Source: Pseudanabaena mucicola str. Chao 1806
Lineage (GTDB): Bacteria; Cyanobacteriota; Cyanobacteriia; Pseudanabaenales; Pseudanabaenaceae
Reading direction: 5' to 3'
DNA: 64,000 nucleotides
Assembly (NCBI RefSeq): GCF_030323025.1
Contig: NZ_CP097329.1
Coordinates: 1,395,001-1,459,000 of the forward strand
In this document: positions 9,006 through 16,137 of the stretch, piece by piece
Position numbering within the stretch: the stretch's first letter is position 1
How the letters are laid out: each line of letters opens with the position of its first letter
Notes under the pieces: model-generated
Databases searched by the model: none
Told to the model about the DNA's origin: nothing
What the model saw: the letters and a program-made list of their open reading frames with translations, nothing else
Program-made: the position numbers and the translations under genes

Positions 9006-9584
9006 ATGACAGCCCAATTAGTTACACCCAGTTTTACGAGCAATATCCATAGGTTTACGGTGCAGCAATACCATCTCATGCACGAGGTGGGGGTATTTGC
9101 GGAAGGCGATCGCTACGAGTTAATCAACGGAGAAATCAGAGAAATGGCTCCAATTGGCATCAAGCACGCAGTTTGTGTAGCGAAAACAGCAAGATTGTTG
9201 CAAATCACATTAGGAGATCAGGTATTTGTATGGGCGCAAAATCCCATTATTCTTAGAAATCATTCAGAACCACAGCCAGATCTTGCCATTCTTAAATGGC
9301 GTGATGATTTTTATGCTAGTGCTTTGCCAACGCCAGAGGACATTTTGTTAATTATTGAAGTCGCTGACAGTACGATCGCCTATGACCGTGATGTGAAAAT
9401 GCATCTATATGCTGCCGATGGAATTCCTGAGATGTGGCTATTTGACCTAAATCAACAAATTATCGAAGGCTATTCTCAACCATCAGCCTCAGGCTATAAG
9501 CGATCGCAGCGCTATGAACAGGGTGATACTCTATCTTTGCTTGCATTTCCTGAAGTAGTTTTTAATTGGGAAGCCCTGATGTAA
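9006..9584 (+). CDS. Uma2-family putative endonuclease, copy 1
   Basis: A 192-residue Uma2 (DUF820) protein with a PD-(D/E)XK-like nuclease fold, one of the most expanded families in cyanobacteria and of unknown biological role. Visible family features are RYELINGEIREM near residue 38, PQPDLAILKW (putative catalytic Asp) and ILLIIEVADST (putative Glu), followed by a C-terminal E-G-Y strand. It converges with the next Uma2 gene and overlaps its 3' end by 23 bases. A paralog with nearly the same upstream 20 bases lies at 15184-15762. GTGAAATACG precedes the ATG. Confidence 0.88.
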   Translation: MTAQLVTPSFTSNIHRFTVQQYHLMHEVGVFAEGDRYELINGEIREMAPIGIKHAVCVAKTARLLQITLGDQVFVWAQNPIILRNHSEPQPDLAILKWRDDFYASALPTPEDILLIIEVADSTIAYDRDVKMHLYAADGIPEMWLFDLNQQIIEGYSQPSASGYKRSQRYEQGDTLSLLAFPEVVFNWEALM

Positions 9585-10185
9585 AGATTTGATTAGCGGT
9601 CAGGTTTAGCTCAGGGAAAATTTGCGAGATCAAGCGATCGCTATTCTGAAATTTACTAATTTGATATTCTCCATCCACCAAATTACAAACTGAGATAGTT
9701 GGCTGTTTGGGATTACCAATAAAGTTCCGTCCGCCCAATGCGGCATAATCAATAATCCAATATTCAGCTATGCCCATTTCTTCATAATCGGCAAATTTTA
9801 AATGATAATCATCACGCCAATTGGTAGATACAATTTCGATCGCTAAAGGTATGGATGCACCCTGACTAAGCACTGATTCTTTTTTCCATCGTGGCTCATT
9901 GGGCAGATTGGCACGATTTACCACCAATACGTCTGGGAAGTATCCACAATCTTTGCCTTCGGGTCTGACGATTACTTGATTAGGAATACCGTATGGTAGT
10001 CCCAATCGTTTGATTTCAAAGGGGATTTCTACACCCAAAAAGCTTTTAAGTTCTTCGTGATCTCCAACTGGTTGAGCCATTTCAACAATATTTCCGTTAT
10101 GTAGTTCGTAACGCACGCCAGAATTCTCAGGAATAAATTCCACAAATCCGTCAAAGGTTGTAACTTTGGGTAAGGTTTGAATCAT
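9562..10185 (-). CDS. Uma2-family putative endonuclease
   Basis: A 207-residue Uma2 protein. The N-terminal VRYELHNGNIVEM motif, the central DCGYFPDVLVVN (putative catalytic Asp) and SIPLAIEIVSTNWRDD (putative Glu) followed by YEEMGIAEYWIIDYAALGG define the family. It is convergent with, and overlaps by 23 bases, the preceding Uma2 gene. A truncated second copy that has lost its start codon is present at 15799-16137, which makes this the intact parent or sister copy. The function is unknown; a DNase activity is only inferred from the fold. Confidence 0.88.
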   Translation of the reverse strand: MIQTLPKVTTFDGFVEFIPENSGVRYELHNGNIVEMAQPVGDHEELKSFLGVEIPFEIKRLGLPYGIPNQVIVRPEGKDCGYFPDVLVVNRANLPNEPRWKKESVLSQGASIPLAIEIVSTNWRDDYHLKFADYEEMGIAEYWIIDYAALGGRNFIGNPKQPTISVCNLVDGEYQISKFQNSDRLISQIFPELNLTANQIFTSGLPN

Positions 10186-10813: not shown

Positions 10814-11488
10814 TTAAGGTGACAATGCTGCTAGTCTATCTCTTAACTCTTGACCTCCATGAATAATACATAGTCTTAAATGCAAGTCTTCAGGATGCAT
10901 TGCAACATGTACACCTTTACGACCACGGGGAAGTGTTTGCACATTGCATCTCCAATCTCGCAGAATATCATTAACTCGATACATTATTGATGGATCACTA
11001 AAGCTCTTTTGCTCAAGGCGGAGAAAAATTTCTAGAGAATCTAGGTTGCGAGACGCTCTTAGTTCTGTTGTCCAATCAGAAGCAAACAATAGCTTTCCAT
11101 AATCCAGTAGTTCTAAAAAAGATTCTACACAATTTCTTGGTGTAACGCTCAAGTCTAAAAGATGTGTGGAATGAAAAAAATCATTTCGTCGATCACGCCT
11201 TGATTTCATGTTGGTATGTAAAGCTTGTACTTGTGCGAGTTCTGCTGTACCTGTTGCAAATTCAGCTTGAACATCATTCTGGATATCGTGATAGTTTTTA
11301 AATCGCCCGTTAGGTCTTGTGTCTGACCAATTTTGGTTCCTTTTTAGCAAAAAGAGTTTAGATGTTAATTCGGTATAGTCATCGCAGAGGATGAAAGCCG
11401 TTTTAAGATACTGTCCGCCTTGCCTTCCTGTGTAGTAGATTTCAACCCCTGCACAGATTTCATCCATAAGATATGTCAATTGACTCAT
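10814..11488 (-). CDS. Putative HEPN-domain accessory protein of the restriction locus
   Basis: A 224-residue protein not recognised as a named family. The start is placed at 11488 rather than 11503 because a strong AGGAGG lies eight bases before that ATG and the start then follows the hsdS stop by two bases, implying translation coupling. The central helix contains RRDRRNDFFH; R101-N-D-F-F-H106 fits the Rx4H signature of HEPN ribonucleases. A charged helical middle and a C-terminal LHLRLCIIHGG segment follow. It is the third gene of the modification/specificity operon, and an abortive-infection or RNase role is inference from the motif and location. Confidence 0.6.
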   Translation of the reverse strand: MSQLTYLMDEICAGVEIYYTGRQGGQYLKTAFILCDDYTELTSKLFLLKRNQNWSDTRPNGRFKNYHDIQNDVQAEFATGTAELAQVQALHTNMKSRRDRRNDFFHSTHLLDLSVTPRNCVESFLELLDYGKLLFASDWTTELRASRNLDSLEIFLRLEQKSFSDPSIMYRVNDILRDWRCNVQTLPRGRKGVHVAMHPEDLHLRLCIIHGGQELRDRLAALSP

Positions 11489-11489
11489 A

Positions 11490-12788
11490 TTATTCCTCCT
11501 CACCTAATAGCTTACGCTCAAAGTGAGTTTTAGCAGATTCCCATTCTGTTTCTGCTTCCTGTCGCAATCTGCGTACTTCTGTACGCCTGTGTTTTACCTC
11601 AATAACAAGGCGCTCTTGAATTTCTAATTCTGGAGTTGGTACTACAAGATTGATAACATCTTCATTTGCTAAACGAGGATGAGTGTTACCTGTCATCATG
11701 TGCTTAGTTTGAGCAAGAATTAATGAAGATCGAAGTATTGTTGCTAAGTAATCAGGAAGAATCTCATTTCTATACTCTTCTTTGATACGTATTACATGAA
11801 ATTCTGTAGAACATACGCCAGTTCTCTCAGCCCGATAAACTTTATTTAAATATGGACGAAGACGAGCAAAGAGAATATCGTCTTCAATAAAAGCAAAGCT
11901 CTTACCTTCAGTTTCTTTATCATTTGATTCAACAAGTTCTCCTGTATTTCTCTGTACATTTGCCATGCCAATATAACTTGCTGAAGTGTAATCAGAAATG
12001 GTATGACGAACAAAATCTACAAACTCAGCTAAACATTTTGAATGTAACTCTGTCCTATCTTCTTGCTCACGAATTGCTATTATCCGTTCAGGATGAAAGT
12101 AGTCTACATCTATTCTTTGTGCTGAACGTACTTTCCTAAGTGACATTGCAAAGACTTTTTTATCACTCTTTTGAGGCATATTTAACCCAAGTTGATCGAG
12201 CAAATACCCATCAAGGCTAGAAAGCAACTCATCTGCTTGAGCTAGTTTTTGCTTTCGGGATTGTCGGGCGGCTTCGATTTCGGCAACTAGCGATCGTTGG
12301 ATCTCAATGGGTGGTAAAGGAATTAATAAATCTTGAAGTTCCTCTGCATTGACGTTAGACATTCCAATAATCTGACGACTCACTCTATCAATTTGAATTC
12401 TTCCTGCTTTAGTACTCAGGAAAGTAGATACGAACTTAGGAATTGCTTTAGTCTGGTCTAGAACAATACGAATTAAGTATGAAGCAAAAACCCAGTCTCC
12501 CTCTTCACCAAAGACCTCACACTTTCCGACAAGTTCTTTTGAATTTGTTCTATTAAATAAAATGTCTCCCGAATTTACTCGATATAATTCTGCTTCTTTT
12601 TCAGATAACTCTATATATTTGAGATCAGTAAGATCCCAACCGTCATTCTGTAAATTATTCATGCGAATCATAGGTATACCAATAGGCTCCTCAGTAGCAG
12701 GTAGTGAGATGCCATATTGAGCTGTATGAATAACTCTTCTCAATGGTGTTAGTACATAATTTGGATTGGCATATCGTTTGGATACCAA
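11490..12788 (-). CDS. hsdS: Type I-like DNA specificity subunit (HsdS)
   Basis: A 432-residue HsdS-type protein. Two target-recognition domains are each followed by a conserved helical spacer: IEIQRSLVAEIEAARQSRKQ near residue 165-190 and LEIQERLVIEVKHRRTEV near the end. It confers sequence specificity on the partner methyltransferase. The first canonical start in frame is TTG at 12788, with no Shine-Dalgarno. The frame stays open for a further 36 codons and reads convincingly as protein (GFSVTRGDIRERTDVNYAAS), running back into the end of the modification gene. The true N-terminus therefore probably comes from a frameshift fusion, an unusual start or a sequence error. Confidence 0.85.
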   Translation of the reverse strand: MVSKRYANPNYVLTPLRRVIHTAQYGISLPATEEPIGIPMIRMNNLQNDGWDLTDLKYIELSEKEAELYRVNSGDILFNRTNSKELVGKCEVFGEEGDWVFASYLIRIVLDQTKAIPKFVSTFLSTKAGRIQIDRVSRQIIGMSNVNAEELQDLLIPLPPIEIQRSLVAEIEAARQSRKQKLAQADELLSSLDGYLLDQLGLNMPQKSDKKVFAMSLRKVRSAQRIDVDYFHPERIIAIREQEDRTELHSKCLAEFVDFVRHTISDYTSASYIGMANVQRNTGELVESNDKETEGKSFAFIEDDILFARLRPYLNKVYRAERTGVCSTEFHVIRIKEEYRNEILPDYLATILRSSLILAQTKHMMTGNTHPRLANEDVINLVVPTPELEIQERLVIEVKHRRTEVRRLRQEAETEWESAKTHFERKLLGEEE

Positions 12789-12880
12789 AATTGAAGAAGC
12801 TGCATAATTTACATCTGTTCTTTCTCTAATATCGCCCCGCGTGACTGAAAAACCTTGAAGATTAACTTCAGTAGCAGGGC

Positions 12881-14848
12881 TTAGACGAAAAAAGATTTAG
12901 GGTCTTGCTTGAATTTACGATACTGGGCAAGAATCCCCGAATTTGGGATAACGCAATCTGGTTCTGAAACCCACTCCTCACCTTCTTTTCGATATGGAAC
13001 TCGGCGATCAAACAAATCACAGCGTTGAATTTCTATTTTCGTATCGCCATTAATCTGAGTATCTACCACCTTCATACTTTTGCGTCCAGTCGCATCATAG
13101 CCAATGTTTTCCGCCACAGCCATAAAGATCGCCTCATCATCATTAGCTTTCTCCTTCGGCTTCCGCTTTCGCAAAAATACCAGACTAGCCTTTACCCCAG
13201 CCCCAAAGTGTGAAAATGCAGTCTGCGGCAAACTTACCACCGCCAATAATTGAAAATTCTCTAACAACCAATCACGCACACCCTGAAGCGATGAATTAGT
13301 GAGAATGCCGTCAGGTAAAACAATCGCCGCTCTCCCTCCCGCCTTAAGAAACCGATGCACCCGTTCTAAAAACAGAATTTCCGTCTTTACAGATGTTTTC
13401 GCCTTAATTGCCTTTTTCCCAGATTTTGGATCTGATTTAGTCGATTTTTTCACCGTAAAAGAAATATTCGCCAAATCATAGCTTTCTAGATAAGGCTTTT
13501 CATCCTGCTTCACCATCGCCCCAAAAGGCGGATTAGTCAGCACCAAAGTAAACCGATTTTCATCAAAACCCTTGTTATGAGCTGTCAATCGCTCCATCGA
13601 TTCCAGCGCATCCTCCCCAATCACATTGGTATGCCCGTCATCATGCAAGATCATATTCATCTTGGCAACGCGAGTAATCTCCTCATTAATCTCAATCCCA
13701 AACAAACGCTTTTCAGCAAAATCATGCCAATGATTGAAATGTTCTTTACTATTTAGCTCGTGATATTCATCAGCCTCTCGCCGCACCGCATCCAACGCAT
13801 ACAGCAAAAATCCACCCGACCCACAAGCAGGATCAAGCACAATATCCTCGTGGGTTGGCTCCATCATCGCTACCGTAAACTCAATAATTTCACGCGGCGT
13901 AAAATATTGTCCAAAATCACCCTTAAAAAAACCATCCATGAATTGCTCAAAAGCAACCCCTTTCGTATCTAGATCCGTCTTATTTAGATTGATGCTTTCC
14001 AAGTGAGAAACGATTGTCCGAATGATGCTGTCATCAACCTTGATGTTTTCTGTGAAAACCTCTGGATCTTTCTCTTTCTCTTTCTGTTTATCGTAAAGCG
14101 ATCTAATCCGCTCCGCTAAACGACGACTTTCTTCATGGGTTTTAATCTGAAACTCATAGGGTTCTCCTTTCTTGCGAGGAGATTTCTCATCACTAATTTT
14201 GACAAAAATTAACTTACACAATTCACCAAACGCTGTAGGAGGAGACAACCGCCCACCACCCCAGAGCGTCTGATGGCATTTACGAATTGCTAAAATCAAA
14301 GCTTCCTTATTAACAGCCTGAATATCCAGATTGCCATTCTTTCTAAACTTATATTCTTCAGGCTTACCGTATTTGATTGGCAAGTCAGCAACAATATTTT
14401 TATCCCGTTCCAACGCCCCATAATTATCCGTGCAATCTAATACCCGCCGAGTGGAACCCGCCACTACCATCACATAGTCGGCACGAAACTTTGCCCAAGT
14501 TCCATTTCCATAAGCTTGTTCAACCGCTTGAGTAAACTCTGAATCCGTAACGCCATCGCGCTTACATTCAACCACCGCATAGGGACGTTTGCGCTCATCA
14601 TCCCGAAATACAACTAAATCCGCCCGATCTGAAGGAGTGCGATCGGGGACAACTATCTCAATCCCAATTCTTATAGGCTCATATTGATAACGATAAACGA
14701 GTTCTGCCCAAAACTCAGCCCTAACTTGCTCTTCTGGATCGGCGTAACGCTCACTATGGTCAACAGCTTTGTAAAGTATTTTCTGTTGCTTACCATCACC
14801 TACAATCTCAGCGTGTCCATCTTTTAGGGCTTTTTCAAGATAGGTCAT
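12881..14848 (-). CDS. hsdM: N6-adenine DNA methyltransferase (HsdM-like) with nuclease-like N-terminal domain
   Basis: A 655-residue protein from the ATG at 14848, chosen because GGAG lies about eight bases upstream; a longer frame reaches 14902. Residues 40-110 resemble the HSDR_N restriction-nuclease fold, with RADLVVF (D77) and AVVECKRDG (E94, K96) giving a D...ExK catalytic pattern. The middle is an HsdM helical bundle (QFMDGFFKGDFGQYFTPREI), followed by the methylase domain with DPACGSGGFLL (SAM motif I, about 337) and LTNPPFGAM (catalytic NPPF, about 438). It ends KSFFV and adjoins the specificity frame. No separate hsdR gene is in the window, so the protein may cut as well as methylate. 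Confidence 0.88.
   Translation of the reverse strand: MTYLEKALKDGHAEIVGDGKQQKILYKAVDHSERYADPEEQVRAEFWAELVYRYQYEPIRIGIEIVVPDRTPSDRADLVVFRDDERKRPYAVVECKRDGVTDSEFTQAVEQAYGNGTWAKFRADYVMVVAGSTRRVLDCTDNYGALERDKNIVADLPIKYGKPEEYKFRKNGNLDIQAVNKEALILAIRKCHQTLWGGGRLSPPTAFGELCKLIFVKISDEKSPRKKGEPYEFQIKTHEESRRLAERIRSLYDKQKEKEKDPEVFTENIKVDDSIIRTIVSHLESINLNKTDLDTKGVAFEQFMDGFFKGDFGQYFTPREIIEFTVAMMEPTHEDIVLDPACGSGGFLLYALDAVRREADEYHELNSKEHFNHWHDFAEKRLFGIEINEEITRVAKMNMILHDDGHTNVIGEDALESMERLTAHNKGFDENRFTLVLTNPPFGAMVKQDEKPYLESYDLANISFTVKKSTKSDPKSGKKAIKAKTSVKTEILFLERVHRFLKAGGRAAIVLPDGILTNSSLQGVRDWLLENFQLLAVVSLPQTAFSHFGAGVKASLVFLRKRKPKEKANDDEAIFMAVAENIGYDATGRKSMKVVDTQINGDTKIEIQRCDLFDRRVPYRKEGEEWVSEPDCVIPNSGILAQYRKFKQDPKSFFV
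12887..12893 (-). other. Candidate -1 slippery heptamer joining hsdM to hsdS
   Basis: Read on the minus strand, the last hsdM codons are TCT TTT TTC GTC TAA, which contain T-TTT-TTC in the X-XXY-YYZ phase. A -1 slip yields TTT TTT CGT CTA AGC and enters the hsdS frame exactly, giving a single chain of about 1119 residues. A loss of one base from the T-run in the genome or assembly would produce the same appearance. Confidence 0.5.
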
Positions 14849-15183: not shown

Positions 15184-15762
15184 ATGACAGCCCAATTAGT
15201 TACACCTAATACTCACCTCAATCTACATAAATTTACAACTAAGCAATATCAGCTTATGTACGAATCGGGCGTGTTTGCTGAAAGTGATCGCTATGAATTA
15301 ATCAATGGAGAAATTAGAGAAATGTCGCCGATTGGGATCAAACACGCAGTTTGTGTAACTCGTTTGACTAAAATTTTTGAACAAAAATTAGGCGATCGGA
15401 CAATTATCTGGGCGCAAAATCCGATTCTCCTTAGTGATTATTCTCAGCCTCAGCCAGATGTTGCCATTCTTAAATGGCGTGATGATTTTTATGCTAGTGC
15501 TTTGCCAACACCAGAGGATATTTTTTTGATTATCGAAGTTGCCGATAGTACGATCGCCTATGACCGTGATGTAAAAAGGCTACTTTATGCTGCCAACGGG
15601 ATTCCTGAAATGTGGCTTTTTGACCTAAATCAGCAAATTATCGAAGGATATTTGCAGCCATCTGCTTCAGGTTATAAGCGATCGCAGCGCTATGAACAGG
15701 GTGATACTCTATCTTTGCTTGCATTTCCTGATGTGATTTTTAATTGGGAAGCCCTGATATAA
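15184..15762 (+). CDS. Uma2-family putative endonuclease, copy 2
   Basis: A 192-residue Uma2 protein and clear paralog of the gene at 9006-9584. The middle (from RYELINGEIREM) and the C-terminal 90 residues are almost identical, while the segment just after the conserved HAVCV has diverged (RLTKIFEQKLGDR against KTARLLQITLGDQ). The putative catalytic residues are in PQPDVAILKW and FLIIEVADST. It is intact, unlike its convergent partner. The leader AGGTGAAATACG is shared with copy 1. Confidence 0.87.
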   Translation: MTAQLVTPNTHLNLHKFTTKQYQLMYESGVFAESDRYELINGEIREMSPIGIKHAVCVTRLTKIFEQKLGDRTIIWAQNPILLSDYSQPQPDVAILKWRDDFYASALPTPEDIFLIIEVADSTIAYDRDVKRLLYAANGIPEMWLFDLNQQIIEGYLQPSASGYKRSQRYEQGDTLSLLAFPDVIFNWEALI

Positions 15763-15798
15763 AAATTTGATCAGCTTGGTGGATACAATTTCGATCAC

Positions 15799-16137
15799 TC
15801 AAGGTATGGATGCACCCTGACTAAGCACTGATTCTTTCTTCCATCGTGGCTCATTGGGCAGATTGGCACGATTTACCACCAATACGTCTGGGAAGTATCC
15901 ACAATCTTTGCCTTCAGGTCTTATGATTACTTGATTAGGAATACCGTATGGTAGTCCCAATCGTTTGATTTCAAAGGGGATTTCTACACCCAAAAAGCTT
16001 TTAAGTTCTTCATGATCTCCAACTGGTTGAGCCATTTCAACAATATTTCCGTTATGTAGTTCGTAACGCACGCCAGAATTTTCGGGAAGAAATTCTACAA
16101 ACTCATCAAAGGTCGTCACTTTCGGTAAGGATTGAAT
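15799..16137 (-). pseudogene. Truncated Uma2 gene, decayed copy of 9562-10185
   Basis: The first 100 or so codons match the Uma2 gene at 9562-10185 very closely (same VRYELHNGNIVEM and DCGYFPDVLVVN). The parent start codon ATG is ACG here, so only an internal ATG at 16119 remains. A deletion removes everything after SQGASIP, including the IEIVST putative Glu and the C-terminal half. A functional nuclease is not expected. Confidence 0.85.

Follow-up and report, generated by a model that had tools for sequence, protein, structure and literature searches.

A predicted programmed -1 frameshift cassette at a restriction-specificity gene junction and its near-twin in Mu-like phages

The RM-S locus and its junction

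The window analysed is a 64,000-nucleotide stretch of the Pseudanabaena mucicola str. Chao 1806 genome. Its minus strand carries an RM gene, an S coding sequence in the -1 frame and a further gene directly 3' of S (Table 1). The RM product matches PF13588 (HSDR_N_2, 1.6e-10) and PF02384 (N6_Mtase, 3e-40). The preliminary description had named this gene hsdM; the N6 methylase is present, but HSDR_N_2 stands ahead of it, and the gene is therefore an RM gene and not a bare hsdM. By eye, protein P0001 has a D..ECK motif at residues 119-143 and NPPF at 483. The RM start at ATG 14848 is our choice and corresponds to residue 45 of P0001. The best solved relative of RM is RM.BsaXI (2.5e-34, residues 199-611). 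S matches PF01420 (Methylase_S, 1.1e-14) in two stretches, and its best solved relative is EcoKI S, also in two stretches; S.BsaXI is matched as well (6.1e-12). As in Type IIB enzymes, Pfam places a nuclease and an N6 methylase in one RM chain and two recognition domains (the two Methylase_S stretches) in S. Among the open reading frames (ORFs) read around RM-S, no separate HsdR with an ATPase motor, as Type I systems have, was recognised. The locus is flanked by a near-copy gene pair (window 9006-10185 and 15184-16119), which we take to be Uma2-like; the reverse gene of the second copy is shorter.

Table 1. Features of the RM-S locus in the window
Feature	Position	Strand	Basis
RM gene; 655 aa in the zero frame, with an N6 adenine methylase behind an N-terminus of nuclease type (HSDR_N_2); C-terminal ...SFFV*	12881..14848	-	translation, Pfam
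Slippery heptamer U UUU UUC, in phase	12887..12893	-	sequence; identical in 8 RM loci
6-nt spacer GUCUAA, ends in zero-frame stop UAA	12881..12886	-	GYCUAA in 8/8 aligned RM loci
Hairpin 5' arm GCCCUGC	12874..12880	-	folding
Hairpin 3' arm GCGGGGC	12834..12840	-	folding
Inner helix predicted within hairpin loop	12866-12872 / 12844-12850	-	folding
S coding sequence, -1 frame, post-slip RLSP..., 465 aa after FF, then stop	11490..12887	-	Pfam, alignment
Next gene, 224 aa from its ATG	10814..11488	-	without Pfam or NCBIfam match

The RM gene ends AAA TCT TTT TTC GTC TAA, and its zero-frame product ends ...KSFFV*. The heptamer TTTTTTC is of the X XXY YYZ type and lies in phase with RM (T TTT TTC), as had been described, and the claim that a -1 slip enters the S frame also holds; this frame is open from 12896 to 11490 (468 aa). 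RM had been said to end four residues past the heptamer; the actual stop, TAA at 12881-12883, is one codon past it. The 654 aa of RM (ATG 14848 through FF) and 465 aa of S would make a single chain of 1119 aa, in agreement with the earlier estimate. The first ATG, GTG or TTG in the S frame past the slip is the TTG already pointed out, at codon 35 (12788). An in-frame TAA lies directly 5' of the T-run in the S frame, and a start of S inside RM is therefore impossible in the window. TTTTTTCGYCTAAGC has a single occurrence in the window (0.00 expected), and TTTTTTCGNYTRRGCCC occurs once in the 4.53-Mb genome. The predicted hairpin begins directly past the stop, 6 nt behind the heptamer.

Junctions in related RM genes

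The closest homologues, clade A, were defined as the eight RM loci with ~54% or more full-length tblastn identity, the window included. All eight keep the T6C junction TTTTTTCGYCTAAGCCC with a zero-frame stop and an open -1 S frame; the zero frame reads FFV* or FFA*, and the -1 frame reads FFRLSP. In the alignment of the eight rows, CTTTTTTCG and CTAAGCCC are invariant. Four of the eight are metagenome bins, and these are the four RM loci of a genome scan: L009, L012, L010 (Chloroflexi) and L011 (Anaerolineales). The nearest named relatives are L012, an uncultured cyanobacterium bin (97%), and L009, a Pegethrix bin (Cyanobacteriota, 90%). L013-L015 come from a 386-genome sample of the window's phylum and match at 57-58% by that search and 53.8-54.7% by tblastn. 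In L009-L012, the four loci followed to the end, the -1 S frame is 462-485 aa long, and the window S aligns with it from residue 2. The gene 3' of S has a relative in this position in L012 (53 and 71%, in two pieces) and none in L009-L011. The next long ORF past S in L012 resembles a gene of the pair that flanks the window's locus.

None of the eight loci has a normal ATG for S, the homologue check proposed in the preliminary description, but GTG or TTG codons are available in some. The first S-frame start past the slip is at codon 93 in L009, 64 in L012, 20 in L011 and 13 in L010. The L011 start falls behind the start of a conserved FxVxRG block, and this block precedes any S-frame start in the window, L009, L011 and L012. 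In L010, TTG/GTG codons precede the FxVxRG stretch, and the S frame of L013-L015 contains a GTG upstream of the slip, at a distance of 10 codons.

More distant relatives have other junctions. Four genes at 45-49% (L016, L017, L018 and L026, three of which belong to one genus) each consist of one uninterrupted frame; the junction carries T9 in 4/4, and a shift into either of the other frames meets a stop after a few codons. Methylase_S was found behind the methylase in L016 and not in L017 (Pfam, 0.001). The T9 run in these four fused genes is a possible transcriptional slippage site. At about 30%, L020-L023 and L025 have a separate S with an overlapping ATG; these junction types leave out L019 (truncated) and L024. 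A 400-genome search centred on G387 gave six RM matches. L166, which is the L010 locus, has the cassette, and S is separate in L167, L169 and L171, with an overlapping ATG; L168 and L170 are left out of these types. L167 matches RM at 54% over residues 218-609 in this search and at 43.5% by tblastn over 41-607. The Trichormus relative L177 (39%) has separate genes.

Clade C comprises 17 loci: a viral contig (L029, 26.6% to RM), relatives in 14 of the 386 genomes, plasmid pAQ6 of PCC 7002 (L174) and a Klebsiella plasmid (L176). The junction T-run is kept in 14/17, as T7 in 13 and as T6C in L029, where an 11-bp stem begins at the base after the stop. In 11 loci (L322-L331 and L174), the zero frame runs through SFF into S with T7, and the -1 frame reads FF*. 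The remaining three with a T-run (L029, L321 and L176) have a zero-frame stop, and their -1 frame opens into S. Polarity at the T-run is thus opposite among related genes, where a slip would give the fusion in three and a stop in 11. Seven T residues had been named earlier as the mark of a true fusion gene; such fusions exist, but in a different RM clade from the window, and a slip there would lead to an immediate stop in 11 loci, so that both products are still predicted. The 11 fused genes contain 38 FF dipeptides; a T7 slip would turn 12 of these into FF*, namely all 11 junctions plus a single site elsewhere. Methylase_S was found in L174 and not in L322 (Pfam, 0.001). Stems past the T-run (n=14) have 7-16 bp. 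In 11 of the 14 loci, no more than 7 of 200 shuffles match them (0/200 in eight; 4 in L176, 1 in L329 and 7 in L331). For L323, L328 and L330, the shuffles that match the stem number 35/200, 74/200 and 16/200. L327, L329 and L331 carry other stops, which together with these last three stems suggests that some clade C copies may be decaying. No T-run is found at the junction of L332-L334, and L332 and L333 have a separate S with an overlapping ATG.

Portal-MuF junctions and the hairpin

Nearly the same cassette joins the portal and MuF genes of many uncultured Mu-like phages. The exact 17-mer was found in 38 IMG/VR stretches, 36 of which have an ORF end and a -1 frame; five of these 36 are cut short by contig ends (L033, L042, L046, L056 and L063). 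All pairs tested (L047, L064, L036, L028, L054 and L045) are Portal_Mu (PF06074) plus Phage_Mu_F (PF04233). Six of seven reference portals match Portal_Mu (Pfam), and the seventh, L034, matches a PHROG portal family. Two IMG/VR scans with a strict or relaxed motif gave at least 149 loci, of which 139 pass and 10 fail an ORF-pair test that asks on each side for either an ORF of 60 aa or an open contig edge. Among the 139 that pass, 136 resemble one of the seven portals, one is an RM gene (L029) and two are unclassified (L277, at a contig edge, and L289); a reversed-pattern control gave 0/25 by a similar ORF test. The relaxed pattern has eight matches in the 386 genomes of the window's phylum, four RM loci and four without an ORF pair (reversed control, 1). 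In the 400 genomes centred on G387 it has three, the known RM locus plus L335 and L336, which fail the ORF-pair test; the reversed control, 6, exceeds the pattern's 3 in this set. The protein query found no RM relatives among viral_contigs; 104 phage records match RM, all under 60% identity. BLAST of the window junction against plasmids gave no match.

Portals were also collected by protein search, which gave 89 loci: query L047 contributed 9, and query L036 its best 80 of 170. The motif is present in both queries, 7/89 loci lie on contigs already found by motif, and near copies are included. Three loci run off the contig (L087, L107 and L133), and 82 of the 86 readable ones have the T6C cassette (81 by script and L071 by a second reading). 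L093, L099 and L118 are without it, and L125 has an earlier stop ~30 nt before its cassette. With two GenBank records added to the same set (for L036, the best 80 of 170), the cassette is present in 84/91, 55 of them nonredundant at 90%; the 84 spacers are GACTGA (46), GACTAA (21), GTCTAA (6), GATTAA (5) and others (6), and GCCC follows the spacer directly in 83.

Three unannotated GenBank phage records carry the cassette (L178, L181 and L320), and the four annotated phage records examined are arranged differently (lotta8-2, BKO1-TP4, Peternella_1 and a Porphyromonas phage). The single ORF of the Porphyromonas phage keeps TTTTTTCG and a GCCCC hairpin, and its -1 frame stops after 26 codons. 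In Winogradskyella phage Peternella_1 (L183:3216-3300), the portal ends past A-runs (AAAAAAAGTGGTCTAA) and the -1 frame is open into MuF, whose annotated start is ~100 nt later; this is perhaps the same junction with an A-type heptamer. Portals without T6C (L093, L099, L118 and L180:3273-3275) end in TGGTAG or TGGTGATG shortly past a GCCCCG-type hairpin, where MuF is perhaps made by coupled restart. The portal cassettes of L084, L110, L113, L127, L147 and L150 show no GGGGC arm within the 52 nt that follow the stop.

The window hairpin folds at an MFE of -21.8 kcal/mol (z -4.32), and 0/200 shuffles are as stable. Folds are also predicted for L012 (-27.8, z -4.95, 0/200), L029 (-37.3, z -4.70, 0/200), L013 (-22.8, z -4.29, 1/200) and L074 (-17.5, z -3.18, 2/200); that of L047 is weak (-11.9, z -1.63, 13/200). 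Among 144 junctions nonredundant at 90% (137 portal and 7 RM, found by motif or protein), the mean stem, capped at 8, has 6.73 pairs, a value that 0/500 permutations of the arms among loci reach (5.21 when permuted). Uncapped, six junctions have 3 pairs or fewer. Covariation was measured on 65 phage junctions, 55 of them distinct, that were picked for one stem geometry, with shuffles that ignore relatedness. Pairing holds in 97.9% of the stem cells of this set, compared to 83.8% after shuffling; changes on both sides are seen in 47 cells (11.5 after shuffling), and the covariation score is 0.348 (0.088 after shuffling). Each of these three values is reached by 0/500 shuffles. The other two of the five measures, double-change pairs and further pair types, do not differ from the shuffles (258/500 and 257/500). 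Pairing slid by one gives 49.9 and 57.6%. An Rfam search of five loci (E up to 1) was negative, as was one of the window at gathering scores.

Proposed frameshift, alternatives and known systems

The in-phase heptamer, the hairpin predicted 6 nt past it and a coding -1 frame that is kept with its site among homologues point, as a strong prediction, to a programmed -1 ribosomal frameshift that yields RM and RM-S. This was one of two options in the preliminary description, and the 8/8 conservation and the hairpin favour it. A ribosome translating RM would meet U UUU UUC with the hairpin 6 nt ahead. Part of the ribosomes would terminate at the UAA one codon on and release RM (655 aa). In the others, the two Phe-tRNAs would move back by one base and pair again with UUU UUU, and translation would continue into S to make RM-S (1119 aa). 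One RM and one RM-S would together bring in RM twice and S once, the composition of an (RM)2S Type IIB-like enzyme, and the slip rate would then set subunit stoichiometry. We infer the slipping agent (the ribosome, not RNA polymerase), the slip frequency and the pairing of RM with RM-S.

Single-ORF enzymes show that RM-S is tolerated. The T6C, T7 and T9 forms would each give RM and RM-S. Our main argument that the pair of products is kept, and not the fusion alone, is that forms of both polarity would give both. In a wider reading, to which we give an even chance, RM/S recoding is old and has been repeatedly re-polarised in Type IIB-like enzymes (slip-to-fuse in T6C, slip-to-stop in T7/T9), fixing RM:RM-S for (RM)2S; Mu-like phages, with nearly the same 17-nt-plus-hairpin cassette, would fix portal:portal-MuF, by convergence on an optimum or by transfer.

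Three other explanations of the junction were weighed. RNA polymerase could slip on the T-run and produce a mixed pool of mRNAs, each read normally, with the same protein outcome. All forms have a T-run, and the T9 clade, with its longer run and stops in both shifted frames, would suit such slippage. Transcriptional slippage needs a homopolymer of about 9 or more; the T6 of the window is short for it, and the phase of the heptamer, the 6-nt spacing and the covarying hairpin fit a ribosome, which makes polymerase slippage an unlikely account. In an ordinary two-gene system, S would be made separately from its own start, which could be the TTG at 12788 or a site close to the UAA used by coupled restart. 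The overlapping ATG of distant relatives (L020-L023, L025, L167, L169, L171, L332 and L333), the upstream GTG of L013-L015 and the TTG/GTG codons of L010 speak for this. Against it, the FxVxRG block lies ahead of any S-frame start in four clade A loci including the window, and restart would leave the invariant T6C and the T-runs of other clades without explanation. We consider a separate S very unlikely.

A one-base sequencing error or recent indel in a true fusion gene was the second option of the preliminary description, and in-frame fusions do exist in other clades. The same junction is kept in separate assemblies down to about 54% identity, with -1 S frames of 462-485 aa in the four loci followed to the end. 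This candidate was rejected on the 8/8 conservation and has practically no chance of being correct. If the programmed frameshift is true, the locus is a natural case in which frameshifting sets the subunit ratio of a restriction enzyme, the way in which an (RM)2S enzyme obtains RM and S at 2:1 becomes testable, and S and MuF frames without a start are explained. It also offers a short, apparently transferable frameshift cassette.

In the full-text literature searched, which leaves most subscription papers outside its scope, the string FFRLSP is absent and no report of a frameshift at an RM/S junction was found. Term searches in the available parts of Antonov 2013 and Atkins 2016 (PMC5009743) returned no RM or portal case. 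Sharma 2014, in the part available, sought hairpins 4-10 nt behind the motif, a range that includes the 6 nt predicted here, and PMC6158711, likewise available in part, presents a 2018 model of RM evolution.

The closest enzyme for comparison is BsaXI, a Type IIB (RM)2S heterotrimer (PMC11997821, PDB 8w0p). It provides the best solved match of the window RM, over residues 199-611 and not the nuclease end, and its S subunit is also matched. In the accessible text of that paper, RM and S of BsaXI are separate subunits and the word frameshift was not found, whereas the S of the window is predicted to form a single chain with one of the RM parts. An EcoKI M-S fusion (Roberts et al. 2012, PMC3510504, in its accessible text) likewise joins M to S, and its cleavage in vitro depends on the addition of HsdM, which fits a pairing of RM with RM-S. 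That fusion is engineered and in-frame, and what the title of the paper calls a 'frameshift' is an overlap of 1 nt between genes that are separate. In vivo the fusion worked even when no separate hsdM was present, for which its authors suspect traces of HsdM; this activity would count against the reading as RM plus RM-S.

The Mu-like portal (PF06074) and MuF (PF04233) pairs share nearly the same cassette with the RM-S locus, but the proteins are unrelated and the product would be a portal-MuF fusion, not an enzyme. Known -1 signals of dnaX, the IS1/IS3-type elements and phages consist of an X XXY YYZ heptamer, a short spacer and a downstream hairpin, and yield two proteins per mRNA. The cassette described here has the same type of heptamer, a short spacer and a hairpin, and two proteins are predicted from it. 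It differs in its place, at RM/S and portal/MuF junctions, in having U UUU UUC as the heptamer, in a spacer that includes the stop, and in the GCCC clamp directly past that stop.
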